Source of the DNA: Saccoglossus kowalevskii
Taxonomy: Eukaryota; Hemichordata; Enteropneusta; Harrimaniidae
DNA length: 57,486 nt
Direction of reading: 5' to 3'
Assembly (NCBI RefSeq): GCF_000003605.2
Contig: NW_003109104.1
Coordinates: forward strand, 140,465-197,950
Below the pieces are notes generated by a model. It was given only the letters and a program-made list of their open reading frames with translations, did not search any database and was not told where the DNA came from. The position numbers were made by a program, and so were the translations under genes. Of this stretch, positions 14,348-55,344 are shown piece after piece. Position 1 is the first letter of the stretch; each line of letters begins with the position of its first letter.

Positions 14348-17300
14348 TCAACACCACCCAGCTGACCAAACACCACCGAAGTTTTTGGGGTCTCCGGATA
14401 CGTCAGGTGTTTGGTTTACCGCCGGAACTAGATGTTTACGGTGTTCGTCCAATCGATGATGTAATTCTTGTACTATCTCTGGATAGAGTTCGGCAGTGTT
14501 GTTTCGTTCCTCTGGATCATCTACAATGAAATAGAGACAGCGTGTTGTTAAAGAAGTATGTCTTATTGCTAAGCATACATGCTTGCCTGTGTGTAATACT
14601 CGAAGGAGGAAATAACTAGAAACTTCATACTTTACACACAAGTGCTCTATGTAACCCATGTGATATGACACCATTTCAAAAGTTCAAAGTGATTGACAGC
14701 GCAAGTAGCCATTCAATGCTGTCCTGAGTTTAACTTTTACCCTCTTTATTAGCCAATCAGCGACAAGTGGGCACTGTCTTTACTTGTCAATCATTAATCC
14801 AAGATGGCGACGTAAATTGTGTAAAATTGACGAGTCGTAAATACTATGACGCCGTGTTGAAGACTGGTGAACTGTATTCATGACCTATCAATGACGTAAC
14901 ATTGAATAACAAGTGAGCATCGGTACAAGCATGAATACATACATTACACAGAGCATGTTATTCCGATGTGTTTTTATGGTCGGCAATACATTTTTCAGAC
15001 TTTTGAGTGCTAATTTCAAAGGCGGTAATTATTAAATCGGACGAGTAAAATATCCCTGTTGACAGTGGACTGTATTTTAACGGTAATTAGTGTTTGTAGC
15101 CACACTTAACTTACATAGATCGTGTTCGCAATAAATCTCAAAGGAAAATATATTTATCGTCTTCAAATTTCACACACAAGCTCCCCATGCGACATGCAAG
15201 GTCTGGTTTATTTTTAGATCAAAAGATGAATGTCCCTAAACACGTTTCCGACTAGGACCACGCAACCACGAAGTAGTTCTGAGGATTGATATGAATATTG
15301 AGAAAATCTGGCGGAAGTTGACATCTCCAGTTTTATTTAGAGTGTTTTATTTTCCAATGTGTTGTACGAATAGTGGATACACCCATCACGTGAAATACAG
15401 TATCGGCCACGTTCACATGTATATTGCCTGGGTTTTAAAGTAGTTCCAATGACATATACATGCATGTTTGTTACGTGGTCGCGCAAACTAGTGTGCATTA
15501 ATGTCGTTGGTCCGTGAAATAAAGTGGTAAGACTGGCTTGATGAATGTGCCCTCAGGATTCACTTTCATTCATATAACAACGATGCGAATTTTCGTGTTC
15601 TCAGTACGGCAACACTCTAGAACGGTGATTGAACTGAGATATTTTTCATACCTTTGATATTGAACAAGTATGTCACGTTCGATGGAGGTGGAAAGTCCAT
15701 TCCAGTGGTGTCACCTCGAAACACGTGTATAGGAATGTCACCAAAGTTATACCAACCATCTGAAATAAATATGACATATAAATTTATTTTATCATTCAAT
15801 TTAAATTCACTGATATTCCACGCTTTCCTAGCACCACGTTTGGCATGCTGTAATAATGGAAGTAACCTTTTTTCCAGTATAGTAATGGTCAAATAAGGCG
15901 TGCTTAGCCGCAATGTCCTTTTTTATATTTGAGAAACTGTAGTTGCTGAATGCGATTTTTCTAGTGTGGGTTCTGACATTTTGAAGTTTCCATTGAGAAT
16001 TCTACGTGTATTTACCTGATTCATTAGCCAGTCGACATGGATACAATAAATCTGGATTTCCGGTTATCAGCTTATAATCCCCGACTCTAGACATATACAA
16101 AAAAATGCAGAGTAAATGTTATGACAGGAGCAGAGATAGATTGTATGTAACACATACAAAACATAAAGCAGAAAAGAATAGATAGATAATAGCTCACAAC
16201 GAAGATTGGCAATGAGTTCTGACAGACCATTAAAACCACAATCTCTGGGATGAACATTATATTTGTATTAATATACCAAATACAAACCAAACATAATATT
16301 TAATTAACAAAGACTGAAAAAAATGGAATAAAGACGTTTCGTTTTCGACATTGTGAAATTCGTTCTTTTCTGGCAGCAAACTTATTAGTATTTTAAAAGT
16401 AATTTTACCTAGTAAAATTATATTTATAAAAGTTATTGATCATAAATAATTTATATTTTTTTATTTTACAGATTCTGTAAGTCACAATTCAAGACGAAAA
16501 AAATGTCAAAACATAGCGAATTATCTGTATTACTAGATGTTTTGTAATACTCTTGTGAAGTCGGTAATTAAGATAATTATCACAGATATACATATGAAAC
16601 ACACATCGTTGTGGATTAATTATTTCTGAATTGTTTTGTTACAGTCAGTTCTTTTCAGATTTTCCCCAAAGGGATTTCCAATGACGAAAACGGAAAGTTT
16701 CTATCGTGGTTTTTTGATGAATAACATCCTTACAGTTTTAAGTAGGGAACAAATTATAAATATCAACAAATGATATCAAATATATGACACACACAACAGT
16801 TGAGTGTTTTCTTTGAGTTGTTGAAGCTAATCATTCGTTATAATTTATATTTACGATTCATGTGGTATATAGAAGTTCATTAGGCCATAGGTAAAATATT
16901 ATACAGGACTCATCATAGTGGCTTTAGTTGGGTGCATATTATCGTTTGGTTATGGGACTGCGTTACGTACATCTACCGAATTTAGGATGAAAACACTGGC
17001 GGATTTGAGTTACGTACGTCAGGTCACCTTCACACAAGGAACTTATTCATTAATAGATCAAAGTTATCACTTTCTATTTCAAATTTGCTCGTGTTCTATA
17101 TGTTGGATAAACAGTGTCCACAAACCTGATGGCAGCACCAGGGGACAACTCGTCATCATCGATATTGTATACGATCTCCTTTCTTGGCGATTGTTTATCT
17201 TCCGAGAATGTCTCCCACATATTCATCCCATCAATTCCAGATGCTGTCAGGTATAACACGAAAAAAAAATATTCAAACACAAATCATTTTCTAAAAATTT

Positions 17301-20300
17301 GCGATAGAATACTCTGAATATTGCTTTCACAGAGGTTTACAACTCACCAGATTCAGCCCCAGCCAACGAAAGTATCGTTTGATGCAAATCAACCATGTGC
17401 CATAACCTAAAATATGAAATAATTTATAGTAAAAAATAAAGGTACTACTATAGTTATGTGAAGGGTTATCAATACAAAAGAATGCCCCACATACGTTTCC
17501 GACCAGGACCACGCAACCACAAATAGGCTCTGAGGGTTGATATGAATATTAATATTACAGTTATTATTCGCAGAAATAACTTGTTGGCATTGTAGCAACA
17601 ATTCAGCAAGCATGCTACACATGTCTGAACTATTTGACTCTGGATATGCTGCTGTTTCTTCTTTTTAATTCACGTTAATATACACATATGACCATATATT
17701 GATATACGTCATGGGAACGCCGAAATCCAAAATGTTTAGAACAGAATCAGCGACTGGAATCTTTGTGTTGAATCCGGTCAAATTCTGGTGGCAGCCATGT
17801 TTGTTTCTATTATTAGAGGACGCTTACGCCATTGTGTCAACACAGGTGGCGCTATTCAGCACAGACCTGTGTCTTATGACGCATAAATATTGTTAACCGC
17901 GTTTCGCAGTATAGCGGGTAACTATTGTCTGTGCGAGATGGCAAACAGACGGGTATGGTATGTGGGGTCATGTGACAAGGGGTATTTAAGTGGAGGACAG
18001 AAGGTTGAATGTCAATCTAGGCCAGTCTCGCTACAGTGCAGTTTTCAACTTGTTGTTTTGTAAGTTTGTTGTATAATACAGGGCGACACCCGCCACCTTC
18101 CCCTGGGTACGATCGACAGTGCGACGGGTACAGGTTTCCAGGTATTTTTTCCTCAAAGGGTTTTTTATTCCTGGTTTTTCCTGGGCGGTCGGCGTGCCAG
18201 TAACGGGGGTTACTATTTTGTCGATGTTTTTTGTCAGTTATTTTAAATGTTTCTTTAACCGAGTAATGTTGATTTCGAGCATCAATAGTCGATATTTTTT
18301 GCAGTTCATGTATTTTTTCTCTCATTTAGTTTATTTCAATTTGAACACTACATGCAATGTAATGGCAGCCGTTTTTAGTCGGCTTTATTAGTATGTTTTG
18401 TTAAATAAATGGTTTGCCGGACCGACTGCATATACGTGGCCGCACCTGGCATGAACCTTACCTTATGTAAGTGTGTGTTGTACATTGTCGGATGTGACGA
18501 GTCTAGTAAAGACCTAGTCTCTGAAGGCTAAATATCAATCATCCACCATTTTAGTCAGCGTTTCTTCTGCGGAACTATATACAAGTATTTTTTTTTTCTT
18601 GTTTTGAACACATTCTCTCCTTATTTTTTAGCAAGATTGAATCTTTAATGAATTGATCAATTAAAATACCGCACAACACTCATCAGCATGTCTTATCTTA
18701 TTAACATTAAAATGTATGTAAATTGCGAGGTTAAAGGTCTAATGTTTCTCAATATTGTATTGACAAGCAAATTGCCGCAAACCAACCGAATAGCGCCATC
18801 TGTGTTGGCACAGTGTGGAAATAGTTCCGACCACTTTTCCCGTAGTTCCACGCGCGGTATGTGTCAGATCGGTTGGTTTGCGGCGATCTGCGTGTCAATG
18901 CGCTTACGCTCGTAATCATTCTATATTTGGAATTCACATTTCCTAATATGGTAGAATGAAAGTACCTCGTAAATACCGCAAAATTACGGCATGCTGTAAC
19001 ATATGGCGTTACGGTGACAGATGTATAATAATATTATTTATGTGATATATAACTTAGCAATCTAATGATCGTAAAAAACTAAGACTTACTGATTATTTAC
19101 ATATCCAGTCCGCTTCAACATATTTCCATGGGCAAAAGCTGGTACACGAGTAGCGCCCTCAAACAAAGTTGCAATCGTGCCTCGGAATGGCCAATTAGAG
19201 CCGGATGAACATGCTAACGCTCCATTCTGTGTGAATAAATAGAAGTAAACGGACATTAATTATATACATTATAGATGAGTATTCAAGTTACAATCCCAAT
19301 TACAACTTTTGACATATTTGTTCACATTAATTGTAACTACACAAGAGCGGCTTGTCAGTCAGAACGGATACGGTAATTCGAGTGTTTAAACATTTTTATT
19401 CAATTTTCATTATTATTGTCGAAAAATATGTAAGTTGTGACAGCCTAGAGAAGATGAACAGATGCCTAAAAATATGCAGTTTTCTGCTTAAACAAATATT
19501 GACTTTTAACAGTATTTAGTTACTTAATTTTCATGATTAAATCAGTTGCTGCTTCGTGTTCAAACTAGACACACCCCGTCTTAGTCTCCTTTATTCCACG
19601 ACTCGAACCCCTTTCCCTACATTTATTTTCTTTTGTTGTATGTTCATGTCAAAATTGATATGAACTGTTCATTAGGTATGAGACAGCAGATTCCAGATCA
19701 AATTGTGAATCTTTATCTTTCAATCAATTTCTAAAATAATGATTTTAAACATAATACAAAACAATCTCATATTTCTATAATTTTTTCTTAAATTGTCTGA
19801 AGTTAGTTATAAAATGTTCGTGGTTATATGCCATAACCAGGTTATGTTAGACGAGATCAGGGTACCGCTACGATAAACAGCGATACATTATTCATTACTG
19901 AATTCTCAATCACCACGGTACAAATATTCAAATCATGATCACAGTATTCTTATCACCATGCGATCATTATTTAACTATTACATAACCAACAAAGTCATCA
20001 GCTAACATACAACACACCAATTTTCATCACTTACGTCGCTGATGAATATAAATAGCGTATCTTCCCATAATGCACTAGTCTTCAACGCTTCGACCACACT
20101 GCTAATAGCATCATCCATTACAGACATCTTCCCTGAAAGAGTCATTTTACACAACTTAATTGGAGGACCGGAATCCGTTCTAAGCGCGGTTACTTTCATG
20201 ACAATGGTAATAGTTCAAAGACAGGAATCCAGGGTTGTTTTTATATCTGGTGTCTCTACAACTTTTACCATAATTCTTCATGATCTCAAAAAGCATAATT

Positions 20301-23300
20301 GAATGCATTATCTAAGTTTAATAGTGTTTGATATTTATCACATACCGTAAAATTTCCGCGTTCTTTCATCTGCGATATACGAATATTTCGCTTCATACTC
20401 AGGTGGAACCTAGAAAACAGACACACAAATGCATGTGAGAATGTCAAAATTGCTATCATGCTATGTTTTTAGTTTATATTTCCAATGTACCAGGTCCTAG
20501 AAAACAAACACACAGAGACAAATGCATGTGAGAATGTCAAAATTGCTATCATGCTATGCTTTTAGTTTATACTTCCAATGCACCAAGTCAATCCACGGAA
20601 TAAGTAACGATTTACCTCCGGAATCTTTCCAGGTATATCCAGAGAAAACTGAAGAAATAGTGGACATTTTGTGGAATGACCCTTTATTATTTCCACTGCT
20701 CTCTCAGCAAGCATGAACTGTGGGGATGAAAGAGAAGATATGCAATTAATACTTTAAACTTTTATGCATTAGCAATACATGTTGACTTCTCAAGATTTAA
20801 AAATATATATTTCAAATAGCAAAAATTGTGTTTACATTACTTGTTTCTTCATGTCACAAAGTCATAATTATTTGCGAACAAAGATTGATGGTGTGTTAAT
20901 CATAAACAAGCAGCCTCTCAGCTGAGATAACAATGCACATTTCAATTAAAGAATTAACGATAGCGTCATGAAATGAACAATTCTGAAAGAGGACCACCTG
21001 AGGTATCTATATGTATAATATCAAAGTATTTGCGTCTATCAACAAGAAGTCAAAAATATTACTTTTAACCAAAATTAGAGAATAAAAGATATCATGTTGA
21101 AATGGACAATCTAAGCGAGATCTGCCCACAAAGTATCAAAACAATCAGGCTTGTACTTTTCAAGATAAAAATCAGGGGTCAGGGGTATCACATTTTGTCT
21201 CATTCTTGCATTATTATTCATTAAAAAACTGTCGATCTCAGCGTTAGTGTCTGTCTGAGACTAAACCACATTATTATACATCTGTCACCGAAACGTTTCA
21301 GTGTGAGGTAATTTTGCGGTATTTTACGGGGATATTTTTACCCTACCATATTAGAAAATGCATCCTCTAATAATAACAAGACATAAATGTCACAGTCCCC
21401 GTCATTTAATTATAAAATACTCGATATCTGCTGCAGAATTTCTGAGACAATGTTAGAGACCGGAAATAAGAAACTATACCGCCTGAAACGGGGACTAATA
21501 CAAAAAAGGCTGCCACCAGGGTTTGACCGGACTCTACACAAAGAAGTTCGCTGATTCTGTTCTAAACTATTTGTATTTCGGCATCCCCTCACCTTGGAGA
21601 AAAAGATGTATAATAGTATTATGGGGATATAATTACACCTAGGTCAAAATAACGTTAGCACAGTGAGGGATTTTGGCTATAGGACCTCAACGGCTCGAAT
21701 CACAGCCCAGCTGAGACAAAGTTCTTAGTTCCAGTTCTGTGACATTTGTATTACTATTATTTATACTCGCCGTGAGATAAGTATCACTTTCTTGTACCAC
21801 ACCGGTGTTGTCACGGAAATCATACCCGACTGCAGCTGGAAAGACAAAACACGTTTTAGTTAACTAAATAAAAATATCCACGTGAAGAAGCACAAATGAA
21901 TACCAAGTCGCTGGTCCCGTTCTCTGATTGGTAGATTAATTTGTTTATTGACCGAGAGATGAGCGGGAGTTAAACTGATATTTGGACTTATGATATACTT
22001 ACTTTTTCCGCAAGTATCTGTTGCAATTTTACCATAATGTGTAGTTCCGCCTGTCCATGAGCCATAGTGTGAATCAAAGCCACGTCTAGTTGGTAGATAT
22101 TCCTCCTTACAGAATCCCAAATCCCACCTACAAATAAAGTTATATATCACAATAGATTTGGCGGATTTAACATGTGATATATTTGGTAGTAATACGGCAT
22201 CATACAGATATCGTATCACACATAGTATAAGCATGTAGGAGGGTATTGTGCACACGAATTCGCTGATAAACATCGCGATCTACTTACTTGCCAATATTAT
22301 GAGTAAGATAGCCAACATCTTTAAGTCTTTCTGGTAATAATTTAAACTCCAATGGAAGCCCACTAGGGTGAAGGTTGAATAGAATTTGATGCTGAATATA
22401 AAAAAAATCTATTTATGAATAACACGTCAGAGGGCGCATTATACTCACTAGAACTATTTTTCACGTTTTTCACAAAATTTCTTGGACTTTTTTTTACGCA
22501 AAACACCCAAAAAATCGATAATATTATACTGATCGATAATAAAACTTTTATATAGTTTGGGTTAAAAAGTACGAAATTCATACATGGATATACATAAACA
22601 TAAACAGAAAAACACACAACAAAACTGACATACAAATATAACTCACCAGCTCACCCATAATAACATCGTTGGCAATTAAGTTAAAAATATGTGTTTAATT
22701 CCATCACGCTTTCATAAATATGGTTCTTTTATTTTGCACAATAATTGTCCAGGGCTAAAGTGAACCACCTTTCAACATTGACAACAAAAAATATAATGAG
22801 GTTATTATAACACATCTCATTACCTGATTTCCAGTTCTAAATGGATAATAACCCGTCATTAGTGAAACTCTCGATCTGTAGAATGAAATGTACATATATC
22901 AAATCAGTTAAGATGTTACATTTAGAGATAATATTCGCTGTAATGTTGTACCCGCACCGGGGTTATATATGAAACACGTCGCCGATAACCGGGTGCACCT
23001 GATATAAGAATTTATATAGTGGAAGTAGCGTGCATGGATGTTGGCTTAACCAACTGAATAATGTATGATGATATTTGTAGTAATATATCTGGGGGGTATA
23101 AAAGATTATTTGACTTACTATTTGGCTATATAAACTAATATATTTCTCAGCAACAGTGGCATGATCAGATTGGTAATAGTTCAAAATTATGCATTTATTC
23201 TAAATTAAAAAAAAAAATCTTAGCCGGGGAAAAATATCTGGATTCTATCACCATAAGTGTTTTTAGAAAATCTCTCACTTGTTTCAGGATATCTACTCAT

Positions 23301-26300
23301 GATCTCATGATTGAAAAGGGTAGGGCATTGGGAATACCACTTGACCAAAGATTGTGTCCTCTTGGTTGTAATCACATTGAAAACGAGTTCCACTTTCTAT
23401 TACAATGTCCCAAATTTGAGGAAATTAGAACTCGTTTTATAAACAAGTTTTACTATTGCCCAGCGCTTGAATGGAAATTTATTTTGCTACTGCAATCTGA
23501 AAATACACATACACATACAACACAAAATCGTGCAAAATACATATTTTATTCTTTACAAAAACTTCATAGTTTGTTAGAAGGAAATTTAACTGAAATATAA
23601 ATATAATTTAGTATTCATAGGTGAAGTATAAGTTTGTAATATTCAGACAAGTAGTAGTAGTGGTTATTCTTGTCAAACGATCTATCTATTTATTTATTTT
23701 TGTTACATTTAAGTGTGTACATTATGGCCTATGGCCAATGGTACTGGATAAATATATTATTATATAAACTAATCAAATTGATTGCTTGGTTATTTACGGA
23801 GAAGAACGACGATGCTAGCAGTGAGCAGTTATTTATAGAGTAATTGAGAAGACAAAAAAATTGATCTGTATCATAGAATTGGTGAGATAATTTATTTTAT
23901 TAGATTAAAGATGACTTTGGTGGGGTGGAGTATCGAAGAGTTTAAAATTTGAACCATAGTACCAGTGACAACACACAAAGTAGTATATGATCTACTTTCA
24001 ATAATGATAAACTGGTCGACGATAAAGAAGTAGTGTAGTAGTTAAGCCCAGGAACTGAAGACAATAAAATGTTGTCTGCTGTCCAGCTTTGAGGTTTATC
24101 GAGGTGAACTTGATTTATGTGTGAGGTATGAACATGAACATGAGCCAGGGTAACAATGCTATTCGCAACCAAGAATTAAATTATTCCAAATGAGAGCACT
24201 GAGGGTAATTCATGGCAATCGGCTTACTGAGGTCCACATTACGAATTATCTAAGAAAGTAGGACGACTTTATTAACATCGAGAGAAGCCGTGCAATAAAA
24301 CTATCTTACACAACTTATACACAACGTATACACAAGTGATCTAAATTCGCACATGTGTTTCATTACGAAACGTTTATCTTAGACTTGTGCGAACTTGTGC
24401 ATGCATATAGAATAATATATATCGTCCTGTTTGTTTGGCAATTTGTTTCGTGTTCCACACTTACTTTTTAAATGTATAATCTTGCTAATTTTTAAACTAT
24501 AGCATATTTCCATAAACGTCACAACCTAATAACGTCCTTGAAATATTCTAGTTTCATGTGAAGTGAGTACCTTCATAATTCTACAAGTCACGAGGTAGTA
24601 ATTTACATTCCACTCACAGTACGGTGTTATTACTTACGGGGTACATAGAGGCTGGACATATGTTTGGTTGAATATAACGCCATCAGCGGCGAGTTGATTG
24701 AGGACGGGCATCATGACATCTGGGTTGTGCCATCCTACGTCATTCCACCCTAGATCCTCTGCTAGTATTAGAACAATATGAGGCGGCCTTTTTTTGTGCA
24801 CTGATAAAACTGAAAGCAAAATTAAAACATAGCAAATCTATTAGAACCTTGTTCGTTGTTTATTTTATGACAGATTGATAAATAAACATACTAATGAATG
24901 ACGGTAAAACAATTAAGGATATTTAAAAAGTATATTTTATATGTTTTGGTTATTTCCAGCACTAATACTAGTGCCATAAACTGTTCAAACTTCAATGCAC
25001 TGAGATGTAAGACTCATAAGAGTATACACCCTTATATATGTGTGAATTCCGTATATAATAATAGTACTGAACAATTCATTCCACTAAGCCAAAAGGTTTC
25101 AATTATTTTCTCTCAATTTCAGAAGGTGAACAAAGTTATGTTAAACGCTCAAGCAAAAGTTAACATCAGGAAAAAAAATCAAAAATGTATATAACCAAAC
25201 TTATCCACAAATACCTAATCAACATGGTTTTATTATATACGTGTACACTAAAGTTTCGTGAAGGTGGAGTTCAAGGTGGAGGTGAAAACACGTCCTATTA
25301 TCACCTTAAGAACATATTTTCGTTATTTTCTGGTGAAATACATTTCATAGCTTCACAAATTATTAAGTGCCATCTTTTATTCTGCTTAAATATCGAGTGA
25401 CAAAAAACCACATAGCAATTTTCTAATTGCATAGACTCCAATGTAATTTATCGAAAGTATATGGGTCATCCTTTAAAGAGTTGCTTTCATCTCAAAACAA
25501 TGGATGTAAGCAACAGTTGGTGGGGAATATGCTTTAGGAGGTAGAGAGTGGTTTTGATCCTAATGCTTCGACGTCTTATTCGAGTTATTGGAACCAAAAT
25601 AAAACAATTGACTGTGAATATTACAACAGATATTTTGTTTCATATTCCCTTCCCTCAGTCTGCAGGAGAAGATGAAAACAGTATATAGAGGACAGATGAT
25701 CATGAAGTGCATACTACATTACGCCATCTAGCGACACAGGCGCTTTTATGACGTAAAGGATGACATGTCGACTTTAAGATAAAAGCCTACTCCTACAATT
25801 ATGGAGCCATTCTGCCATGGAACAACGAAATAGCAATATTTTATGTGTTTGTGTGTTTTGAGAAACTTGTCCTAATAATTTGCAATCAAATTTAACCTCT
25901 GCTGACCTTGCACATTGTTACATAATATTATTTCATTTATACAAATTTCTTTTAATGTGATTATGTATTGTCATAATTCATTTTGAATACAAACACGTTT
26001 TAGGATTGAAACAGCAATTCGAAAACTTCTTTATTGATGTAATTGTCTTGTTTGATAACAAATAGTGGTGCCTAATTTAATAAAATAGTAAATATACTTG
26101 TTCAGTCTGAACTGTGCCTACACTATTAAATACTGTCACACTGATTATCAAAGTTATACCATTTACTATCTGGAGTTTTGATACAAGCATAGTAATGAGA
26201 TGGTGTTGATTGATGAACTACGACTGCATAGAGTTCAAATACTGTGTTATCACAAATATCACCACTCAGAAACTTTATATAGAAGATAATATTTGGTAAT

Positions 26301-29282
26301 CGTAGTCCTAAGTAACTATTTAAAATAGCTAGACGTTTCGAGCAATGGCTCTTTATCGATAGCATAGAAGAAAATTAATCATTAAGTTAACAGTTAATCC
26401 CGTTAATTAATTATTAATTTATTAACTACTCACCAACTTTGACAGATTTAAAGTACATGGGAAAATAACGGATGTTTCAATTTTGGGGAACAAATCTAAC
26501 CTGCAACTGAATAACAAACTATTATTTCTTCACAGAAATAACGGAAGTTTGTTTTCATTGAATAAATTACTATTATAAAAGCTCGATAGTTAAGTTTTTT
26601 TGATTATCGAAAATTATGTCGACAAAGAAATGTTTGTTATAACAACCATTCCATTTCACATGTCAAATACAGCATACATATTTTTGAGTACAATTTGTCT
26701 TTTAAAATGTATGCAACATTTTGTCTGATATGTATTTTTGCTTTGACAATTTTGGACTAAACAGACATAATTTTGTACTTGCGTCAGATTTCATTGATGA
26801 ATAGGCTTCTACCTTAATATATAACAACTACATTCTATATCATACCAACACTTTATTGTTAGAGGGCGTGCCATATCAGATCTAAAGTTACACCACATTA
26901 ACGTTACCTACCAATGACAACTATCGCTAATACTACGATAACTATGACAAGGACTGTCAGCATGGCACATGATATGGCGTTCTTGCGAATCTTTTTCAAA
27001 GCTGCTTGTGTAAAGTCATCGTCAATGCCAGACATCGTGACGTCACCGATAGTCGAGGGTGAAATGGGATGATCATCGTTCTGAAACAAAACAGATGTTA
27101 CGTGTTTGTAAGACTGAGAAGTCGTGTGAATTCATTATTTTTTTAAACCATTTTTTTTCTTTCAAAGCCAATGAAAGTTGTAAAAAGTGCCTGTGCCAAC
27201 TTATGCTCGTCAGCGGTCGTTGGTGGCGTGGTAAGCATCACGTCGGCGGAAGTTATTACCATTTTTAAAAGTATAATTAATTCATAGCAGATATCAACGC
27301 CAACATATTTTTATATTTTGTTTCTGTAATTATTTTTACTGTGTTGCAATGGGTAAGTGTTTCAATAATGACAACGTTAAATGGGTCTCATATAAACAAA
27401 GATGGCGACTTTGACTGTTGCGCAGATCAACGAGTACAAACTGAGACGTTACCAAGCTTTAATAAGGTATTTTTAGGTGATTGGAAGGTATCGAAGGAGT
27501 CACCGGCGGTAATTAGTGCAAGTCGCATCCAAGTCAAACCTCATACTTGTGATTTCCATTATAAGAGCGCATTGGATTGTGGGAAAATCAATGTTTATCA
27601 ACACATTACAGGTCAATATTTGTATAAGCAGAAATGAAAGGTTAACAGGATATTACATAACACTAAACTACATATGGTTAGCATCTCTTCATGTTATCTA
27701 ACGGACATAGACATCACACAATTTCCAACAACCACATCCCTATAACAGAACTTCCCGGTGTTCTAGTGAGTTTTTACCATACCAATCACGTGACATTTCG
27801 CTATACAAGTGTAACAAAACATACAAGTTGACAAGGCTATCACATGACAACTTCATTTATCGCGTCTTAATCTTATACAACATCTAAGTCGCAATTTGTA
27901 ACGATTAGTGGCGATTTTCAAGCGTGAGTTTTGTTTTGTTGTTTTTATTAAATACCAACGCGTCAAAAGAATAACGGTTATGTTAACACAAGTTCACACA
28001 GAAGTCACCGTGCAGTAAACGTGGGATATGGACAAGCGTGTAAGTCTATAATAGAGCTACTTCAAGGCATAAATTGGGCATATATATATATATACATATA
28101 TATCGTACTCTGTATGTTTAGCACATCCAGCTCGTACTCGGGTGACCTTCTTGAATACACTTCAACAAACTTCGAGACAGGGCGTTACTGAAACAAATTT
28201 ATGACAGTAAAACGATATCAAGGAAATTTGATATATATTTTTAGCATAGGGAATTATATTTCACAGTATATTATTGTATTGTATTTGTGAGCTGTTTTTT
28301 TTTTCTTTGCCGGATTTCACGTCATAATATTATAGACGTTCATGTGCCAATGAATCACGATTAGGTACACACAAGCAGTGTCATCACATGACGTTCAAAT
28401 ATGGACAATGTTATATTATAATAAACCGACAAGACGTTGAAACAAGTTTGCTTTAAGTACAACATACCACTACAGGGACGATAATATATAAGGCTATTTG
28501 TAATGTTCTCATGTGAGCCGGCATAGTTCTTTGACGACGTGTTTAGATATGTGATGACCGACCTGTGGTGGTCCACAAATGTTGTGCATTATGGGTAGTA
28601 TCAGAGCTGATCACAGATAAACTCGCTTGAAGCACTGACTCTTAAAGATAAGGCAATCGTTAACAGCATATTATACGAACTTATCTTCTCTAACATCGTG
28701 TCATATCCACCGTGCATATAACCCATTGCCAACACCACCACCAATACCTAACCTAAACCCGCCCACCCACGCCCTACCCATGGTACCTATTCAAGACGAT
28801 GTAAATTTGCGGAGTAAACAAATCATGACTACTTAAATATGCGTAGTAATAACACAACATAAATTTGCCTAGTAATAGGGACACCATCTATACTATGTAT
28901 AAGACCACAGTAACTGGCTCACATATGAAACAAACAATGTACCCGTCATTTGCTGTAATAGACACATTACTTGAGGTTAATTAACGACATACTTTGATAA
29001 ACTCACCATGTCTTGGAGCTCAATCTCATCCTCATCGCCACTGTCTTTCTTAATTTCCGGTGAATCGGACCCTTGTGAATTTAAAAGTACTGATGTTGAA
29101 TCCGGCATGACGTTCGTGTCTTCTACGCCAGAGTTTACTTCCACATCTCGCCGTTCGGCATCGTAATTAACGGCTTCATTATCATTCTCCGAGTTCAACA
29201 CGACCGCTTCACCGTTCTCTGGTCCAGTTTTGATGTCCTCTTCGACATCCGACGTCGTTTGCTCATTTTTGCCTTCCTCCAT
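14348..29282 (-). CDS. Membrane-anchored arylsulfatase B-like protein, likely catalytically impaired (16 coding exons)
   Basis: Exons in transcript order: 29282-29007, 27080-26912, 24809-24638, 22875-22824, 22391-22288, 22127-22003, 21835-21771, 20717-20616, 20409-20346, 20132-20035, 19226-19090, 17406-17348, 17243-17126, 16086-16016, 15759-15652, 14520-14348. All junctions keep frame. The model gives about 630 residues. Residues 1-120 are acidic and Ser/Asp-rich; KKIRK at 121-125 precedes one hydrophobic helix (about 126-150), predicting a type II membrane protein with a lumenal or extracellular sulfatase domain. That domain has LAEDLGWNDVG, QPLCTPSR (C204 is the formylglycine site), GKWDLGFC, LPTRRGFDSHYG, GYDFRD, SDNGA and DPEERNN, in the order of arylsulfatases B/I/J. 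Compared with human ARSB, D53 is E166, H147 is D260, H242 is G351 and K318 is I427, while D54, C91, R95, K145, D300 and N301 remain. No stop or frameshift was seen. Hydrolytic activity is doubtful. The family alignment was made by eye. Confidence 0.9.
15236..15302. repeat. Intronic 66-bp direct repeat, copy 1
   Basis: About 66 bp beginning ACACGTTTCCGACTAGGACC recur at about 17490-17555 (CATACGTTTCCGACCAGGACC-like) with roughly 85% identity in the same orientation. Copy 1 lies between sulfatase exons 15 and 16, copy 2 between exons 11 and 12. Not coding; origin unknown. Confidence 0.5.
17490..17555. repeat. Intronic 66-bp direct repeat, copy 2
   Basis: Partner of the copy at 15236-15302. It shares the phrase GGACCACGCAACCAC and the ending TTGATATGAATATT. 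Confidence 0.5.
17705..19035 (+). repeat. Older interspersed repeat (parts A and B), split by a younger insertion
   Basis: Part A (about 17705-17820) contains TTTAGAACAGAATCAGCGA and GGTGGCAGCC. Part B (about 18935-19035) contains TACCGCAAAATTAC and GGTGACAGATGTATAATAAT. The same two parts occur next to each other in reverse orientation at 21268-21600. The 1.07-kb segment at 17830-18900 interrupts this copy. Confidence 0.55.
17821..18909. mobile_element. Insertion with 9-bp target duplication CGCTTACGC
   Basis: The 9-mer CGCTTACGC stands at 17821-17829 and again at 18901-18909. Between them is a 1071-bp segment that begins CATTG and ends CAATG. Its first 28 bp (17830-17857) recur inverted at 18788-18815 with 25 of 28 matches. 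A second, perfect-looking hairpin has 32-bp arms at 18758-18789 and 18869-18900 containing GCCGCAAACCAACCGA. It also carries TATTTAAG near 17985 and AATAAA near 18403. An insertion with a 9-bp duplication suggests a Mutator-like or related DNA transposon, internally rearranged. No transposase was seen. Confidence 0.5.
20409..20590. repeat. Tandem duplication of about 90 bp at a splice acceptor
   Basis: Two near-identical copies begin CCTAGAAAACA at 20409 and 20496 and share AATGCATGTGAGAATGTC and AAATTGCTATCATGCTATG. On the minus strand this duplicates the branch/acceptor region (TTTTCTAG) immediately in front of sulfatase exon 9. The inner acceptor at 20410 is the one that keeps the reading frame with the family. 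Confidence 0.7.
20897..21175. repeat. Truncated copy of the 13.6-kb repeat element
   Basis: It shares ACAAGCAGCCT, 'caatgcacat', 'ctgaaagaggaccacctgag' and 'caacaagaagtcaaaaata' with 13560-14160, but has only about one and a half internal units and lacks the right end. Same orientation. Lies in the intron between sulfatase exons 7 and 8. Confidence 0.55.
21268..21600 (-). repeat. Intact inverted copy of the A/B repeat
   Basis: On the minus strand it reads the A part (ATAGTTTAGAACAGAATCAG...) and then the B part (AATATGGTAGGG... GGTGACAGATGTATAATAAT). It serves as the empty-site reference for the insertion at 17.8-18.9 kb. Together with that copy it brackets sulfatase exons 8-11 as a large inverted pair. 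Confidence 0.5.
23127..23773 (+). mobile_element. 5'-truncated LINE with 13-bp target-site duplication
   Basis: TATATAAACTAAT occurs at 23127-23139 and again at 23761-23773. Between them an open frame runs from about 23145 to a stop at 23599. It reads QQQWHDQIGNSSKL, FRISTHDLMIEKGRALG and RLCPLGCNHIENEFHFLLQC. This is the typical C-terminal end of non-LTR retrotransposon ORF2 proteins, with the C-x(3)-C...H-F-x-x-x-C knuckle. A 3' UTR ending in GGATAAATATATTATTA follows. The frame is still open, so the insertion is fairly young. It lies in the intron between sulfatase exons 3 and 4, antisense to the gene. Confidence 0.8.
25515..25635 (+). pseudogene. Decayed C-type lectin exon in a sulfatase intron
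   Basis: After an AG (AAGCAACAG) the text reads VGGEYALGGREWF in one frame and then, after a frameshift, STSYSSYWNQNKTIDCEYYN. This resembles the middle lectin exon at 7917-8040 (WWLGL ... YSNWASDQPDKTNDCAAI): similar start, Y-S-x-W loop and D-C cysteine. It is broken by the frame change, so it would be a pseudo-exon on the strand opposite to the surrounding gene. No partner exons were found nearby. Confidence 0.35.
26110..26290 (-). pseudogene. Fragment resembling the C-terminal box of a ubiquitin-specific protease
   Basis: On the minus strand the text reads DNTVFELYAVVVHQSTPSHY, then YACIKTPDSKWYNFDNQC, and stops. USP-family deubiquitinases have the same order, Y-E-L-x-A-V-V-x-H-x-G...G-H-Y-x-A-Y-I...W-Y-x-F-(N/D)-D, which carries the catalytic histidine in G-H-Y. 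Here G is S, the second Asp is Gln, and no splice sites or further USP parts were seen. It is a remnant within the intron between sulfatase exons 2 and 3, in the same orientation as the gene. A chance resemblance is possible but the match is long. Confidence 0.5.
27270..28975. other. First sulfatase intron, no further gene recognised
   Basis: AT-rich sequence with a short TA run near 28080-28103. No coding exon was found in either strand. Confidence 0.4.
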
Positions 29283-29317
29283 CTCTAGACAGTCGGCGAA
29301 TAAACTCGACCTTACAG

Positions 29318-29345
29318 ACTCTCGCTCACTCTATTAATAAATAGA
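29318..29345 (-). promoter_or_regulatory. Possible TATA-type core promoter of the sulfatase gene
   Basis: On the minus strand CTATTTATTAATAGAG lies 40-60 bp before the ATG at 29282 in a short leader. The spacing would put the start site close to the coding region. No experimental signal is available. Marine invertebrate genes are often TATA-less, so this is tentative. Confidence 0.25.
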
Positions 29346-29449
29346 TGGTGTCATGCACGCGAATGGAATTTTGGGTAGTTCCACCCCGATAAGATAAATA
29401 ACTTGTAAAATGCAGCATCTGGCCTGTAATAACACGCGAGAGTTTTCTC

Positions 29450-30555
29450 TCGCACCAACGCCGACAGTGGATCGTATTTCACCTATACCATGACCCCGTA
29501 AACTTACGATGTTAGTACGGACTGCTGTATACGGTGATTATAGGGGAACGAGGGATTAATGACATTTATAAAGTAACTATATACTATGACAGTACTGCGG
29601 GTGATTGGAAATAACACAGCGGATCACGTTATATTGTATCTCGTTAAATCTTCTTTCTTTTGGGGGTAAATTCAAGTTATCACGTAAAATTTTATGAAAT
29701 CGTACACGAACCGAAGACAGGAACAGCGAGACATTTTCACGTACCCTCAGAATGGAGGTCATATTCCCAATCCTGAATACCACACGCCTGGCAATTCGGC
29801 AGCGTGTTTTTGTTGTTGTTTAATGGGTAGCTGATCATATGTGAATTAATCCCTGGTGAATTAATATAGTGAGTATAAGATAATATTGCCTATTTTGAAC
29901 TTGAACTTCGGTGGTGAATGAAGTTGCGAATAATCCGTTTTCACTTCTCGGGGACGGTTGTAGGTTAGTCCTAAGTAACTTGTAAGTACTATTGTCGTCA
30001 AATAAAACTTATCCAAAATGTTGACCAATTTATGTAGCCAATATGTAATTGTGTCCATTTGGGCCAAAATTACTCAAACAAATATAAACACTAGTTACTT
30101 CTTCTAGTAACCGTGATATAAATTGAAAAAATGTGTCACCAACATTTGGCGGGAATAATTATGCTTCTGAAAAGATTAATAACATTCATACTCACTGAAT
30201 ATGTTTGCAAGTGAGTTGACTTAAGCTTGTGTTCCCTCAGTATGTGTATGCATGACGTAGTTAGATTCGGTGTATTAGTTATAGCGAAAACGAGACATTT
30301 CGAATAATCCTGTTACAGTCAGTTAACGGTACGCCCTCATTTGTACTAATAGCACGTTCGTTACTTTGGTGGCTTGTCTAACTTGATATCCATCCTGACG
30401 CCGGTATTTTTTTACGGGACGAGGCTATATTCATCGATGACGTACTCCGTCCCAATAATAACACAATAGACACGAAAAAAGAGGGTTGACATTCTCATTA
30501 CAGTTTATTCATTGAACACGAATCTTCTAGTTCAGTCATAGATGTTAAAACTCGA
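29450..30555. other. Intergenic, no gene recognised
   Basis: Nothing supported on either strand between the sulfatase 5' end and the AAAT microsatellite. Confidence 0.4.
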
Positions 30556-30556
30556 G

Positions 30557-30698
<142 letters not shown>

Positions 30699-30743
30699 GT
30701 AGATGAAATATGTGTATACTATAACGGAAGTGCTGTGAATATC

Positions 30744-30757
30744 GTTACCATGGTAAT
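30744..30757. promoter_or_regulatory. RFX X-box-like palindrome
   Basis: GTTACCATGGTAAT is a nearly perfect palindrome close to the RFX X-box consensus (GTTRCC-ATGG-YAAC type). Isolated site about 1.5 kb upstream of the sulfatase ATG. Function is unproven. Confidence 0.25.
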
Positions 30758-31612
30758 CGGTGGGTTGAGTGGCTTGGATCGTCGACGACCCTGAGGTCAA
30801 ATTCGTTGATGAAAAACAGAACATACATCTACAAACACAGCTCGGATAAGCTCAAATACTCACTCTCGTTCGCCACCATTTTTTTGCACAAATTTGACAT
30901 GTTCTAGCAGTACAAGACAAATCGTATTTTTTTGACAATCTGAATTATCGTTTACAAAATACAATTTGCAATATTTTTAAGGAATAATTTTCAAAAATAC
31001 ATCATAAGAGACAAGTCACAATTAACAGTATACGAAGTTTAAAATTCGGTGGTTCATTTTTTTTTTGGCCTTAAAATAGTCAAACTCTATCTATAAAACA
31101 TGGCACAGGATGGCGCTCTACGCGAAATGCGAATATGAAGCGCCAACATGCGACCGCGTCAGTATCTGGAAATCAACACGTCACGTGACTTACATTTAAA
31201 TACACAACACATATATTAGCATGATCAGCTAAGGTACTTTAAAACCGCTCAACAGTATTTACAACCATCAGTCGTGTTATCTTAGTACATAAATACACTG
31301 CTTTTCTTCACAAGCAACATATACACGTGACGTCATCAATATAAACTCAAAGAACAGTATCATAGCTTGTCAGTTTAGTTTTTAAAAGTAATTTACAAAA
31401 ACACGAGCATGTTTGCCACATACAATTCGACGTAATATGATGTTATCATACGCTGGAAAATCATACTGAAATAAACTTGAAGTCTGTTACTATGTGTTGC
31501 TAGTGACGTAAACTTTAGGGTTACATATTTAGGTAAATATTGTTATTGATACTAGGATTTGAATTCAAGGACAGTTTGCATATCAGGTGACTATTCGTGA
31601 CCTAGTTTATCC

Positions 31613-31690
31613 AAAATGGCGACCATGACGTAAGGTATCTAAGATGGCAACCACAAAATATATTCAAGAATGGAATGCATCCAAGATGGC
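31613..31690 (+). promoter_or_regulatory. Three YY1-type ATGGC motifs
   Basis: AAAATGGC at 31613, AAGATGGC at 31641 and AAGATGGC at 31683 match the YY1 core AANATGGC within 78 bp. They lie about 0.9 kb beyond the 3' end of the bHLH gene. The cluster could be a remnant of a repeat. Confidence 0.3.
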
Positions 31691-31953
31691 GGACTGTTCG
31701 CCCAGTTGCATTTAAAGAAATGTTGAAGATTACCATCAATTCTCACTCAGGTAATACATGTTGAATACATGCATTAGAAACATTTTTACAATAAGAATGT
31801 TTTACGTAGACCGTAAGATGGATTCGAATCTCATAAGCGAAATATCACCGTGATAACAATTATGAGTTTAAATTCATTTGTATACATATTGAATTATTTA
31901 ATAAGCAATAAATGCTAGGACCATTCCAATGCAATGACTTCGTTACATGTTGT

Positions 31954-32097
31954 TTAAAGTGGGGGCGTCGTCACCTGCGCATGCGTCAGATGGCCATAGC
32001 GTGTCATTGTTTACAAACAAGCGTCTAACCATGAGCCTTTGCGTTTTTTGCGTGTGTTGTTATCGAGCGTGCGCAGGTGTCGACCCTCCCGCTTTAA
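31954..32097. mobile_element. E-box MITE, copy 1
   Basis: The ends are inverted: TTAAAGTGGGGGCGTCGTCA on the left, and TTAAAGCGGGAGGGTCGACA on the right read inverted, each followed by CCTGCGCA. The termini therefore contain CACCTG/CAGGTG E-boxes. 144 bp, no ORF. TTAA at both ends could be a target duplication. Confidence 0.6.
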
Positions 32098-32539
32098 TCG
32101 CTAATTAGTACATGCTGTGAATGAGTTTCAATGACACGGATACCCCAAACCAAGGGGAGAGGTGTGAAAACAAAAACAATATATAGTTATTCCATGAATG
32201 AGGTATACTATACTGTAATCTTTCACGACAAATCCCTGCATGGGGGTCATATGGGACATGGTCTACGTCCAGACATTTTTGGGCCAACAAGTCCTTTTTG
32301 AACCTGGTCGACAGTCTTGAATTCTAGTGAAGAACCCCCGTCCCTCTATCACACCAACACTTTTTTTCAAAACCTTGATCATGATAGGTATGGTTGATCA
32401 GTCTGATAATTAGACACAATAAGAAAAAAAACACGATCGCGGTGGGTGTTGCATGTCACTATTATGATTACAGTAGCTTTCGTTACAGACATATCGGCGA
32501 TGCATCGGGCCCAGAAATGGCAGTCATGAATGTCAAGAT

Positions 32540-35500
32540 TTAGCGCGGGTCTTTCTTTGCAATGTTCTCTAATGCCTGTATTGGGTTGATGGTCGGGCTG
32601 AGTGGCGGTCCGGGAAGAATTCTGCTGCAGTACGAACTGGAAACAGTGGTAGTGGGTGAGGTCGTATATGAAGATTCCTGTGAAGACGAATTCGGGCTAT
32701 GGCCCCCATAGTTTAAGAACTTGGAATATACTGATTCGCTCTGTGGAACGTTAATCGTTGCCGCACTGCTCGTTGTGGGCGCCACTGCTAAAAGAGTGTT
32801 GGGACACTGTGATTGCAGCATGCCGTTTGACGCAATATGATTGGTCGATGTGGACAGCAGATGACCACTAGCTGTAATCACGTGATTAAATGGCGGTGGA
32901 GGTGGAAAGATGTGGCCAGGAGCAGTGGGGTGGTTTAGCAGTATGTGATTAGCCCCCTGGGGTGCAACGTGGACATGTGTTGGAAGCTGAATGCACTGTG
33001 TCGGTGGCAGGAGAAAGTATTGCCCGGTGACTGGGTCTAGTACGATTTTAGAACCCGTCAGGACTTTAGTAGCCGGTGGATGCTGGAATGGATGTGGTAG
33101 AATCGTTAGGAATTGTGGCGATGGGTTTGTAGCAATTCCGTTGGCAGTTACTGGCGAGTTTATGGCAGTCTGGATTCCGTTCGCGCCCATAGGTGTTGTT
33201 TGTACATTGACTGGTAATAACGTTGTTGGTTGCTGGCGTCGACCGTCTTCTGACGTATTGCCATTAGTGGATGAGACAGCCGTTGGTGAATTCGCCGATG
33301 TACACGTGTTCGACGTTTGGCCGTTCGGGCTTAACGCGATTCTTCCCGAGTTTGAACCATTCACCATCGTTGAGGTCGCTGTCGTTCTTGTCGGTGATGG
33401 GCTCGGCGAGGCAAATCTTGTCAAACTAGAAACATTTACGACTTTGAGTTCCCCTGATGAGGTTCTTTTCCGTTTGGCTTCGCATGGCGGTGGATCTGAC
33501 GGCTCCTGTTTCGCGAGGAAATGCGTTGTGACTTGCCTGTCTCGCACAGGAGGTGAGTTCAGCGGTGGAGGTTCGCTTGAGGGCGTTTCAAAATCAGAAC
33601 TCGGAGTGTCCGGACTGCTGATTGGACTTCTGTCATAACGCCCATGATGTAACGCTACTTCCGAGTGACCATTGAGCGATTTCTCAAATCTTGTAATTCC
33701 TATCTTTGGTAGAAGACGTATAGGTTTCACCAGTGGCTTAAGATTCGACTTTTCCTTTTTAAAGACATCTTCGAAATTCTGGTTCTGTAAGTGACATAAC
33801 AGACGAAGGAATCGGATGTCCTGTGGAGCCATGGCTTCTACCTCCGCTAAATAACGAGCAATTTCTTTCATGCAGGCTTTGTAACCATCTTCGAATCGCC
33901 GCTTACCAATTTCTTCGAGTTCTGTTACATCGTCTGTGGAAAACAAAACAAAACACCTTAGTTAATAATGCCCGACATTTCTGACTACTTGCAATATTCC
34001 AATTACCATATCTCACAATGATCGCTCGGACTTTCGTTTTGGAAAATCACATTTCATCAAAGGTGTGAGAATTAGGAACGTATTGTCTATGCGTGTAACC
34101 TGAAACTAGTTGAAATGTGATGGAATCGGATCAGAAAATGATACATCAGTATTCATTTTCATCTTGTCCATGTCATCATAATAGAAAATGTCTGTCCTTT
34201 TGGTGTTGTTGGTGATGTCATGATTTCAAGTACTCAAACCAATTCCATCCAATTTGTTTCAAACTTGGATAATGTCTTAACCAATTTGGAATCTTGGCCA
34301 AGTTCGATTTTGGTACATGTTTCATGAATATTTTTCAAGATAATGGTTAAATTTCACTTAAAATAATTGCCTTCTTGTGGTTAGAATAATTTTTATCTGG
34401 TCATCTTAAAATTTGGGAATCTTATCAGTCAGTATAAAATATCAATCAAGTTTAATTTTCATGGAAGGCAATTTTCAAGACAAAGTGTAAAGTTTGGCCG
34501 AAATAAAACATTTGTTAGATGTAGAAATAAGTGGACGGAATAAAGACGTTTATACTGCTGTGAGAACTAGATGTTGGTAATATGCTTAAAGTAAACCGAT
34601 ATGTTGTTTTCATTGTGAGTATAATTCAAACATGTGACAAGTGCATACAGTTCTCCCGCCTTTTTTTAAATTTGGCTAGTATTTTATTTTGTTTATACAC
34701 ATTTATGCTCAACAAAATTTGAGAACTTTTTAAAATTCCATGTTATATTATTCTATAGGATACACTCGGAGCTAGTAATTTCTACTCAAAATTGTTTAGA
34801 TATATTATTGCATTGTTACAGGACTTTTATACTCACACTTATCATGCAAAGAAAATACCGTGCATCGTTAGTTTGTATCCATCCATCTATTCATCCATCC
34901 TTTCATTTGTTATTTTAACTAGATTCCCAGTAGACATGTTTAATTATATTTTGTTTAAATGATTTCCCGTCATTCTGTGCATTTCTCATATACCACATTC
35001 TCACAATGAAAAAGGGTGTAATTTATTTATTCCACGTATAAAATAAAATGCAGATTATAGAATAAGAGATCAAGGCCTTACCTCGCACTCTACACATTTA
35101 TCTAATATGCTAAATATACGTATGACGTAGGTAGGATATTGAACACGTGATTACAGCTACCTACCTACATCGTTATCGTTGGCATCTACTCTGTCGTCTT
35201 TCTTCGTGTCTAGTGATATATCTTTCCCCGTTCGTTGTATTTCATGGATGTATGCAACTGCCAACTCCAGCACTTCCGCTTTCTCCAGTTTACCAGTATT
35301 ACTGCTGTGTTTCTGATGATGAATAATAAAGTGGTATGTTACTTGCTGTTGAAGGACACAAAGGGACCGAGGAGTTGTCACACAGTCACTGAATAATGAG
35401 ATGTCGTACACCCATGCGTGTTATATAAACGCAATAGTGGATATAAGCCAAGGAGAAAAGCCAAGGAAAGTGTCACTGAAGACTCAGACTGACTGGAGCC

Positions 35501-38500
35501 ATCTTCGAGCTCTGAACGTTATTGTGTGCGTCTGGTAATAGATCGTACTAAACTGTTATAACGTTGATTTATATGACAGAATTTTCTGAAACTACAACTG
35601 AAACTTTCAGGTTGTACATAGCCCCTACACAAGATTTATATAAAATATGTTATCTGTGATGAGATAATATGTTTATCTGCGATGAAATATTATGTTCTGT
35701 GTGAACAAAATATTAATATTAGTTATCATAAATCATGATCAAGTTTGAATATCAATATTCAATACCAGCAATCCATATAGTTCTGGTGTATCAACTGATG
35801 TATTACGTGTGATGTATCAAGATTAGGCTCTCTTACCGATCTGACAAACGATGAAGGAATCACGTGACTGAGCTCGCTGATACAAGAATTGATTCGGTGT
35901 CTGCGCCTGCGTTCTACGATTTTATGTGAGCTGTATTCCTGTAAGAAAATACATAATGAATATGTATATTAGGATGCATTGAACTGTAAATAACACTACA
36001 TGACACATGTAACTGTTTTGGTTGGATGAGACCTAACGTATCTCATTTGTAGAAGGTTTGTTTTCAATCATCAAAAAATCTAAGTAATGGAGAAGATAAA
36101 AACAGGTAATCACGTGCACTGCTGGTGAAAAGGAATTATTACGTAGACTGCTGGTGAAAACGTATATGGACTACTGGTAAAACAGGTTACCACATAAACT
36201 GCTGGTTATAAAAAGTTATCAATTAACGAGGGTATTAAGATAGTATCGACGTAAGATTTACATTTTGAATGTATATACTTCACACAAATCTATTTTCAAA
36301 TTGCCGAACAAGTCACGAGACACCGAAGTGTATCCCAGATTCCATCATCGTTTGACACTACGATGTTTACATAAACATACACATACCATGGTAACACGTT
36401 TGATGCCGCATTCTTAGTTTGCTCATTATTAATAAAAGTCAAAACATGTTTTCATAAACTATGACAGAGACACAATTGCTTTTTGCAGGTAATACATCTT
36501 ATTGAAAACACTGTTACACAATAACACACTTTGGCGAGGTTAGCTTTCAAACCTCTTTGCATCGTTGTTGTTTTTTTTCCCTCAGATATTTAAATGTGCG
36601 TATGTGATGCCACTCAGCGCCATATTGTTTTGTTCATTGTATCATAGCATATGGGTGCTTAGTTGTCTCGTCATTTGGACGACATGATTAATGTGTGATA
36701 TTCTAGGGTTAGGGGTTTGTATATTGCAACGGTTTTGATTTGGTTTAGATTTATAATTATTTATCAGTGAAATATTCAAAAATAAATACCAAACAACCAG
36801 TAACGATACAGTCCGGTACAACATGCGCGGGGAAGTCGTCACCTGCGCATGCGTCAGATGACCATAGCGCGTCATTGTTAACGAACAAGCGTCTACCCAT
36901 GAGCCTTTGCTTTCTTAGCGTGTGTTGTTATCATCGCTTGGGACTCAATTCCCGCGCGTGCGCAGGTGACGACCCTCCCGCTTTAATCTTTTCACTGGCG
37001 GGTACTACTGTAAGTGGAAATTAAGTGATAGTTGAACCTTCGCATATTTATCCAGCTGTGGCTACATCCACGATACAATGTGAAGGCACTACGGCACTGT
37101 CATACAAGTCACAAGCACTCACAGAAGTTCGCGAAGATAATCGCACTGAATTATTGAATTAGGCACATTCTGAATGATTATTTAAAACAAATACTGTAAA
37201 ACATGTCTTTTCGCGAGCATTTCTTTTTTGCGAATTTAGCGAGAGAACTGATTCGCTAATTCAAGACTTAATTATCAGTTCAAAATGGCCGCCAAACAAG
37301 GAAATCAGCAATGACAAGAGAGATTAGCTAAATCAACATTTCGCTATTACGTCATTTTACCACAATTCGCTAAAATTGCATGCCGCTTTTTCAACATGTT
37401 TTACAGTGTAGTATTAGTAACGAACATGAACAGCCGAGAAATTAATAAAAAAAATCGTTCATTCATTTCTAACTCGCTAACCAATAGACGACTTTCCCGG
37501 AAGTCGAAGATACGGCGCTTCGCATGCGCGCGCGTGTCGTTGTTGAATGTATTGCATGATATTGTGCTTCTGGGTCTACCAATCGGCGTCACAAAAATAA
37601 AATTCCCTTCTATCGACTATCAGCAAACTGACATATCTGTATATTCAGCTGTGACAAAGCAGGAGTATTTTTGCACCCCAGTATCGCTACTTCCGGGAAA
37701 GTGGTCTATGAAGGACGAACGTCCATAAAATAGTTAGGAAGTCCGCCCTCTGCAGTTTACCTCGACAAGGCTGCTTATTTGTCTAGGGTTTATATACGCG
37801 GCACTGCCACCCATTTCCCGAGTGCGAACTAATTACATTATTTAAAACAATTCAGCAAAAGTTGTTGGTGGTGAGATTGATTTTGAGTAATTGATTCAAA
37901 TTTGGATAATATCATTACTGATATGGTTAAATTGTTATTGGTTGCATTAGCAAAAATGAAAGAAAGTTTAAAACGTCGTACTGGAACTATTATGACAGGG
38001 TCGAGTTGTTATCTGCGTTGTATAGAGTTTCACATCGGAATTACACCGGAAACACCAGTATATATAAAATCCAGTTTCACATCTAAGACAAATAAAACAC
38101 TTCCCTTGGACGCATGGCTGCCATGCAATAACATCACTGGTTAAAGTCGTATTCATTTCCCTACCCCAGAACAGCAGTGCGTGACAACCACATGCCAACA
38201 CATCAATCTCACACGAGTTACTAGGCACACCCGACGTAAAACTCCGTTATCGAATGTGTTAACAAATGGTGCGATACACTGTACATTTATAGTGTGTCTA
38301 AACGCGGTAAGAATAACCGACTCGTGCTTCATGCAATATATAGAAATACGAAATCCTGTGCTGTTGTTTTAACCAAACTAAATCCGCACAGTGTTCTTGT
38401 CCTGAACCCCGGGTCCTAAACAAACGGAACAGAGGATGCCAGGCACATTAAAATTTCACCGACACTGCCACTAACGCAGACAGGTTACTTTGCCCGCACA

Positions 38501-55330: not shown

Positions 55331-55344
55331 CCAGATATTACTGA

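Follow-up and report, generated by a model that had tools for sequence, protein, structure and literature searches.

A selected, expanded family of ARSB-type sulfatase-like genes with replaced catalytic residues in Saccoglossus kowalevskii, and its proposal as a pseudo-sulfatase family

The sulfatase-like gene and its surroundings

The window, by which we mean the whole stretch of 57,486 nucleotides of Saccoglossus kowalevskii DNA that was analysed, lies in contig C367 of the 572 Mb assembly. On its minus strand, at 29282..14348 (stop codon included), lies a sulfatase-like gene of 16 exons. The spliced coding sequence of 1893 nucleotides encodes 630 amino acids with no internal stop and with consistent exon phases, which reproduces the stop-free 16-exon frame of the original prediction. 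Fourteen introns are of the GT-AG type and one, intron 7, is GC-AG (donor gcgagt at 21770), so that all splice sites except the GC donor, 29 in number, are canonical. At this donor (21770, minus strand) all 14 relatives modelled there have GT, in a modelling procedure that penalised GC. The parts of the gene are as follows.

29007..29282, minus: exon 1, 92 aa, acidic N-terminal tail, predicted cytosolic; the start codon begins at 29282
26912..27080, minus: exon 2, tail and most of the transmembrane segment; phase 0 at its start, phase 1 at its end
24638..24809, minus: exon 3, beginning of the sulfatase domain, LAEDLGW to PLCTP
24757..24759, minus: codon GAG of E166, at the ARSB D53 position (metal ligand)
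22824..22875, minus: exon 4, SRVSLMTGYYPFRTGNQ; R95 is retained, and the LTGR motif has Y for its R
22288..22391, minus: exon 5 of the gene model
22003..22127, minus: exon 6, WDLG where WHLG is expected
22121..22123, minus: codon GAT of D260, at the ARSB H147 position
21771..21835, minus: exon 7, followed by the sole GC-AG intron
20616..20717, minus: exon 8, FLQFSLDIPGKIPE in place of FLYLALQSVHEPLQ
20628..20630, minus: codon GGA of G351, at the ARSB H242 position
20346..20409, minus: exon 9 of the gene model
20035..20132, minus: exon 10, last residue D409 (ARSB D300)
19090..19226, minus: exon 11, N410 (ARSB N301); RGTIATLFEGA in place of RGRKWSLWEGG
19173..19175, minus: codon ATT of I427, at the ARSB K318 position
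17348..17406, minus: exon 12 of the gene model
17126..17243, minus: exon 13 of the gene model
16016..16086, minus: exon 14 of the gene model
15652..15759, minus: exon 15 of the gene model
14348..14520, minus: exon 16, C-terminus GVWSAGWC and stop codon

From N- to C-terminus, the protein consists of the acidic tail encoded by the 92-residue first exon, a transmembrane segment, and an ARSB-like sulfatase domain. The Pfam Sulfatase family (PF00884) matches residues 158-472 with an E value of 4.4e-46 and 158 bits, against a curated cut-off of 25. The top match in the PDB is human ARSB (1fsu, E 9.2e-102), and identity to it is 43% over the aligned part of the domain. The hydrophobic stretch spans residues 132-150 and has the sequence KKIRK on its N-terminal side; five N-x-S/T sites lie on its C-terminal side.

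Elsewhere in the window, an open frame of 473 residues that contains a Hairy-Orange domain (PF07527) adjoins the sulfatase gene at 32540-33961 on the minus strand and probably belongs to a gene for a bHLH transcription factor. Inside intron 3, on the plus strand (23139-23600), there is a 153-residue open frame without a Pfam match, whose Cys/His-rich part resembles, by eye, the tail of a retrotransposon. A long short-unit repeat with the translation LFIYLFIY occupies 30498-30851 (minus strand), and a coding-like minisatellite at about 55220-56280, with units such as LYCDVLAAMHSQ, has several frames open on both strands. At gathering scores, Rfam matched nothing in the window.

Replaced and retained active-site residues

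Alignment with ARSB places E166 at D53, D260 at H147, G351 at H242, and I427 at K318, and no gap adjoins any of these four columns. The other catalytic residues are kept, namely D54 (D167), C91 (C204), R95 (R208), K145 (K258), D300 (D409), and N301 (N410), and the formylglycine motif C-x-P-x-R is present as C204-T-P-S-R208. Both parts of the original reading of the active site are confirmed, that is, all four replacements (E, D, G, and I) and the retention of the remainder with its C-T-P-S-R signature, which amounts to six of ten residues, including C91. Three of the four metal ligands D53/D54/D300/N301 are thus kept, with E at D53. H242 and K318 act on the leaving-group side of the sulfatase active site.

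The same columns were read in 81 relatives, comprising 80 bacterial genome loci (the best 80 of 586 confirmed candidates) and L081, the one relative that viral contigs gave. The scan patterns for this set demanded conserved motifs, D/E and H/D being allowed at two sites. Within the set, whose bacterial members are the best 80 of 586, all 80 rows readable at the D53 position have D, 79 of the 81 relatives have H at the H147 position and likewise 79 at the H242 position, and the K318 column holds K in 77 of 80 readable rows, R in two, and I in one. The row with I (L063) diverges from the family around this place. Published conservation figures were carried over by means of an equivalence between ARSB and AtsA residue numbering, which we take to be correct. 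In PMC5066984, the equivalents of D53 and K318 are 96% conserved and that of H242 99% conserved among formylglycine sulfatases, and E is among the rare replacements at the D53-equivalent metal ligand. A concentration of changes in the window protein at catalytic columns is suggestive, not significant (Fisher p = 0.17, 0.065, and 0.086 at three thresholds).

The original prediction had allowed for other exons that restore the histidines. When the whole window was searched by tblastn with the protein and with human ARSB (E up to 10), neither an alternative exon restoring either histidine nor a second sulfatase copy was found.

A clade of related genes under selection

A profile search of the same genome with PF00884 gave at least 118 exon-level matches. 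Close relatives of the window gene occur at no fewer than 15 further places, which makes at least 16 genes with the window gene itself; the original prediction had described one of them. Twelve stretches, with twelve genes, were picked for first-exon matches resembling that of the window gene, and three places were added; all 15 fetched places encode relatives. Their tblastn pieces break where the window exons break. The agreement between exon models is partly built in because the models were guided by the exons and phases of the window gene. Five relatives in all are partial: C3655_54k (exons 3-6), C3655_107k (exons 3-8), C2602_72k (exons 3-10 and the start of 11), C2048_21k (exons 3-12), and C1967_24k (exons 3-13). 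Genes on short contigs, C2048_21k among them, were counted apart from the C843 copies and may be other haplotypes of these. Broken copies make up four of the 15 relatives, three with stops and one frameshifted:

C843_288k: stop in exon 8
C843_296k: stop in exon 6
C843_303k: stops in exons 13 and 16
C4507_547k: frameshift in exon 5

Because these four relatives carry stops or a frameshift, the family turns over. On contig C843 six members cluster at about 230000-353300, five in one orientation and the sixth in the opposite one, and three of the six contain stops; this cluster is an instance of birth-and-death turnover.

Counted over the 16 genes with broken copies included, H242 is kept in none of the 15 readable members (A in 11, G in four) and K318 in none of the 13 readable (A in ten, I in three). 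The D53 column holds D in 11 genes and E in five (the window gene, two C4507 genes, and two C3655 genes), and H147 is retained in 14 of 16, the two exceptions being the window gene (D) and the broken C4507_547k (N). All 13 aligned rows keep C91 and R95, and with CTP-SR or CTP-TR found in three later genes the count comes to 16 of 16. Of the 13 rows, 12 have K145; the exception is the frameshifted copy, in which the end of the exon is unreliable. At residue 182, where T is canonical, all 16 genes have M. Two residues past the H242 position, eight of the 15 readable members have a histidine (PAKH); the window gene reads PGKI and has none.

Outside the clade, H242 is present at all 15 ARSB-type places that were sampled from this genome (13 plus C1340 and C3824), which were picked from Pfam matches spanning the H242 region, a choice that favours profile-fitting genes. 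The other catalytic sites were read in C1340 and C3824 only. D53, H147, H242, and K318 are all present in C1340, and D53, H147, and H242 in C3824, where the part read stops short of K318. C3240, a sulfatase of another type, has a histidine at the H242 position too.

Since C91, R95, K145, and three of the four metal ligands are kept, and 14 of the 16 members have H147, catalysis may persist in a weak or altered form. The gene could still encode a working enzyme, either a formylglycine sulfatase or a hydrolase related to one, whose active site is rearranged, whose substrate is different, and in which other residues stand in for H242 and K318. D54, D300, and N301, retained in the window gene together with C91, R95, and K145, would suit such an enzyme, as would the family-wide retention of C91 and R95 and the PAKH histidine near the H242 position in eight of 15 readable members. 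However, the window gene lacks both histidines and, with PGKI, a neighbouring one; K318 is lost as well; and conservation of the H242 equivalent among formylglycine sulfatases is put at 99% in PMC5066984. We consider a working enzyme unlikely.

The N-termini point to two destinations. C2602 has an upstream exon with the same phases as exon 2 of the window gene (0 at the start, 1 at the end), flanked by a good acceptor and a good donor, which encodes a similar transmembrane segment, RWRKTNLIRAFLVIVSILAVVMALVIIG; its first exon was not found upstream of this anchor exon. C4507_547k and C3655_54k have first exons of the MRLTCLVLVALV type and C843_273k, 288k, 296k, and 353k first exons of the M(S/G)SL type, all of them signal-peptide-like as judged by hydropathy and a donor-site scan, with no trained predictor, and three of these six carriers are broken copies. 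The sequence covered yielded no recognisable first exon for the remaining eight relatives. A signal-peptide first exon was also considered as an alternative start of the window gene; the top candidates in 24810-36000 proved to be pieces of exon 2, and weaker ones exist, for example an ATG at 28524.

A dead copy might also act as a regulator of other sulfatases, either by pairing with active ARSB-type enzymes or by occupying the formylglycine-generating enzyme. Retention of the CTPSR motif despite the loss of turnover residues agrees with such a role, as does the supply of possible partners, given the 118 or more Pfam matches to sulfatase exons and H242 at 15 of 15 sampled ARSB-type places. On the other hand, secreted-looking and anchored forms would put some members away from the endoplasmic reticulum, and this role seems to us distinctly improbable.

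In a protein tree with human ARSB, C1340 and C3824 from the same genome, and four bacterial sequences as outgroup, all 16 genes form one clade with 100% ultrafast bootstrap support and a long stem. Relations within the clade are weaker: C2602 comes out as the partner of the window gene, with 73% support from proteins and 68% from nucleotides, and the outgroup attaches next to the C4507 group (82%). Given this weak inner branching and the outgroup beside C4507, the E, G, and I of the window and C4507 lines may have arisen once or twice. The most likely order of loss has H242 and K318 disappearing at the base of the clade, followed by the changes of D53 to E and of H147 to D. The former, found in the window, C4507, and C3655 genes, would have one or two origins, and the latter would have arisen in the window gene.

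The window gene and its family are under purifying selection. For nine copies without stops in the exons covered (three C843 copies, two incomplete), the codon model gave a pooled dN/dS (omega) of 0.31 between paralogues of this one genome, with lnL -7211.8 and kappa free at 1.70; the neutral comparison model, with omega fixed at 1 and kappa fixed at 2, had lnL -7371.4. Values for the paralogue pairs compared ranged from 0.05 to 0.47. Three-point estimates of omega on the window branch, made with four choices of partner, were 0.25, 0.29, 0.16, and 0.16, with upper bootstrap limits of 0.39, 0.51, 0.25, and 0.37 in the same order, the last two estimates resting on 339 and 237 codons. In a neutral simulation confined to substitutions, a stop arose in every one of 300 runs before four of the ten catalytic codons had changed; the median first stop came at substitution 17, and a median of 338.5 substitutions was needed for four catalytic changes.

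These values bear on whether the gene is a recently dying pseudogene whose stops are still to come. Such a gene would have company in the four of 15 relatives with stops or a frameshift, but the dN/dS of 0.16-0.29 on the window branch, the 0 of 300 simulated runs, and the 16 of 16 open exons, whose splice sites are canonical except for the GC donor, all argue against it, and we regard it as very improbable. A plain pseudogene had been pictured in the original prediction as showing dN/dS near 1 together with stops in close relatives. Stops or a frameshift do occur, in four of 15 relatives, whereas the pooled ratio among paralogues, 0.31, is not near 1. Because broken relatives stand beside selected intact copies, the pattern reflects turnover of a family and not a plain pseudogene. 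The earlier proposal of a pseudo-sulfatase encoded by an intact gene is supported by the analysis: four near-invariant active-site residues are changed in a selected gene with dN/dS far below 1.

A proposed binder of sulfated ligands and its known counterparts

With a probability of roughly 0.6, we propose that the genes form a selected, expanded set of ARSB-type pseudo-sulfatases, membrane-anchored in type II fashion in the window gene, which would bind a sulfated ligand without hydrolysing it. The sulfatase domain, presumably with a fold like that of ARSB, would face the secretory lumen or the cell exterior, where it would bind a metal ion and possibly carry formylglycine. The family has given up the leaving-group histidine and lysine and kept the formylglycine motif, the arginine, and most metal ligands, and the window gene has additionally lost the other histidine and changed one metal ligand. 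A sulfated glycan or other sulfate ester could then be bound and not turned over, anchored members serving as putative cell-surface or sorting receptors and secreted members as soluble lectins or decoys. The sulfate-ester binder, decoy, or receptor proposed earlier would fit these sequence features.

We put forward more tentatively a broader picture, that of a lineage-expanded animal family, part anchored and part secreted, which discarded the leaving-group half of the active site and kept, under selection, the half that holds formylglycine and metal, and in which formylglycine might itself capture the sulfated ligand for a receptor or decoy. Families that face changing outside ligands commonly show clusters in which broken copies stand beside selected ones. 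By analogy, and as speculation, recognition of food, microbes, or gametes would suit the clustered turnover seen here. The selected, expanded clade offers a record of active-site loss together with two apparent modes of delivery, anchored and secreted, and raises a testable question, namely whether the fold of formylglycine sulfatases can work as a receptor that recognises sulfated glycans. Annotation from the CTPSR signature alone would call such genes active sulfatases.

Among known systems, ARSB (N-acetylgalactosamine-4-sulfatase; SulfAtlas S1_2, PDB 1fsu) shares with the window protein CTPSR, K145, R95, and three of the four metal ligands, and differs from it in H147, H242, K318, and D53, all replaced in the window protein. 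Cysteines C117 and C121 of ARSB are L and G in the window protein. The N-terminus of human ARSB is a signal peptide, whereas the window protein has a type II anchor and the 92-residue first exon in its place. In bacteria, L005:1342-2811 (Betaproteobacteria) and the ARSB-like part of a long open frame in L015 (Burkholderiales) are pseudo-sulfatases that have lost both histidines, as the window protein has; however, they have also lost K145 and the formylglycine cysteine (changed to S), both of which the window gene keeps. A sea urchin arylsulfatase is reportedly a component of the extracellular matrix, going by the title of a 2009 work of Mitsunaga-Nakatsubo, and on that title it may be likened to the window protein as a sulfatase-type component of the extracellular matrix. 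PMC5066984 states that nine planctomycete or lentisphaere sequences without the positively charged signature residue may be inactive.

Judged from titles, searches of an open-access library gave no description of a sulfatase pseudoenzyme family. Phrases for inactive sulfatases led, by title, to sulfatase deficiency, arylsulfamates, COPD, and a zebrafish model, searches on duplication together with inactivity gave nothing on sulfatases among the titles listed, and those on catalytic residue names found no paper. Pseudoenzymes are well known among kinases and phosphatases, as pseudokinases and pseudophosphatases. Like pseudoenzymes in general, the window family has retained its fold and remained under selection with catalytic residues lost; pseudoenzymes as such are already known, and what would be new here is a family of them built on the sulfatase fold.
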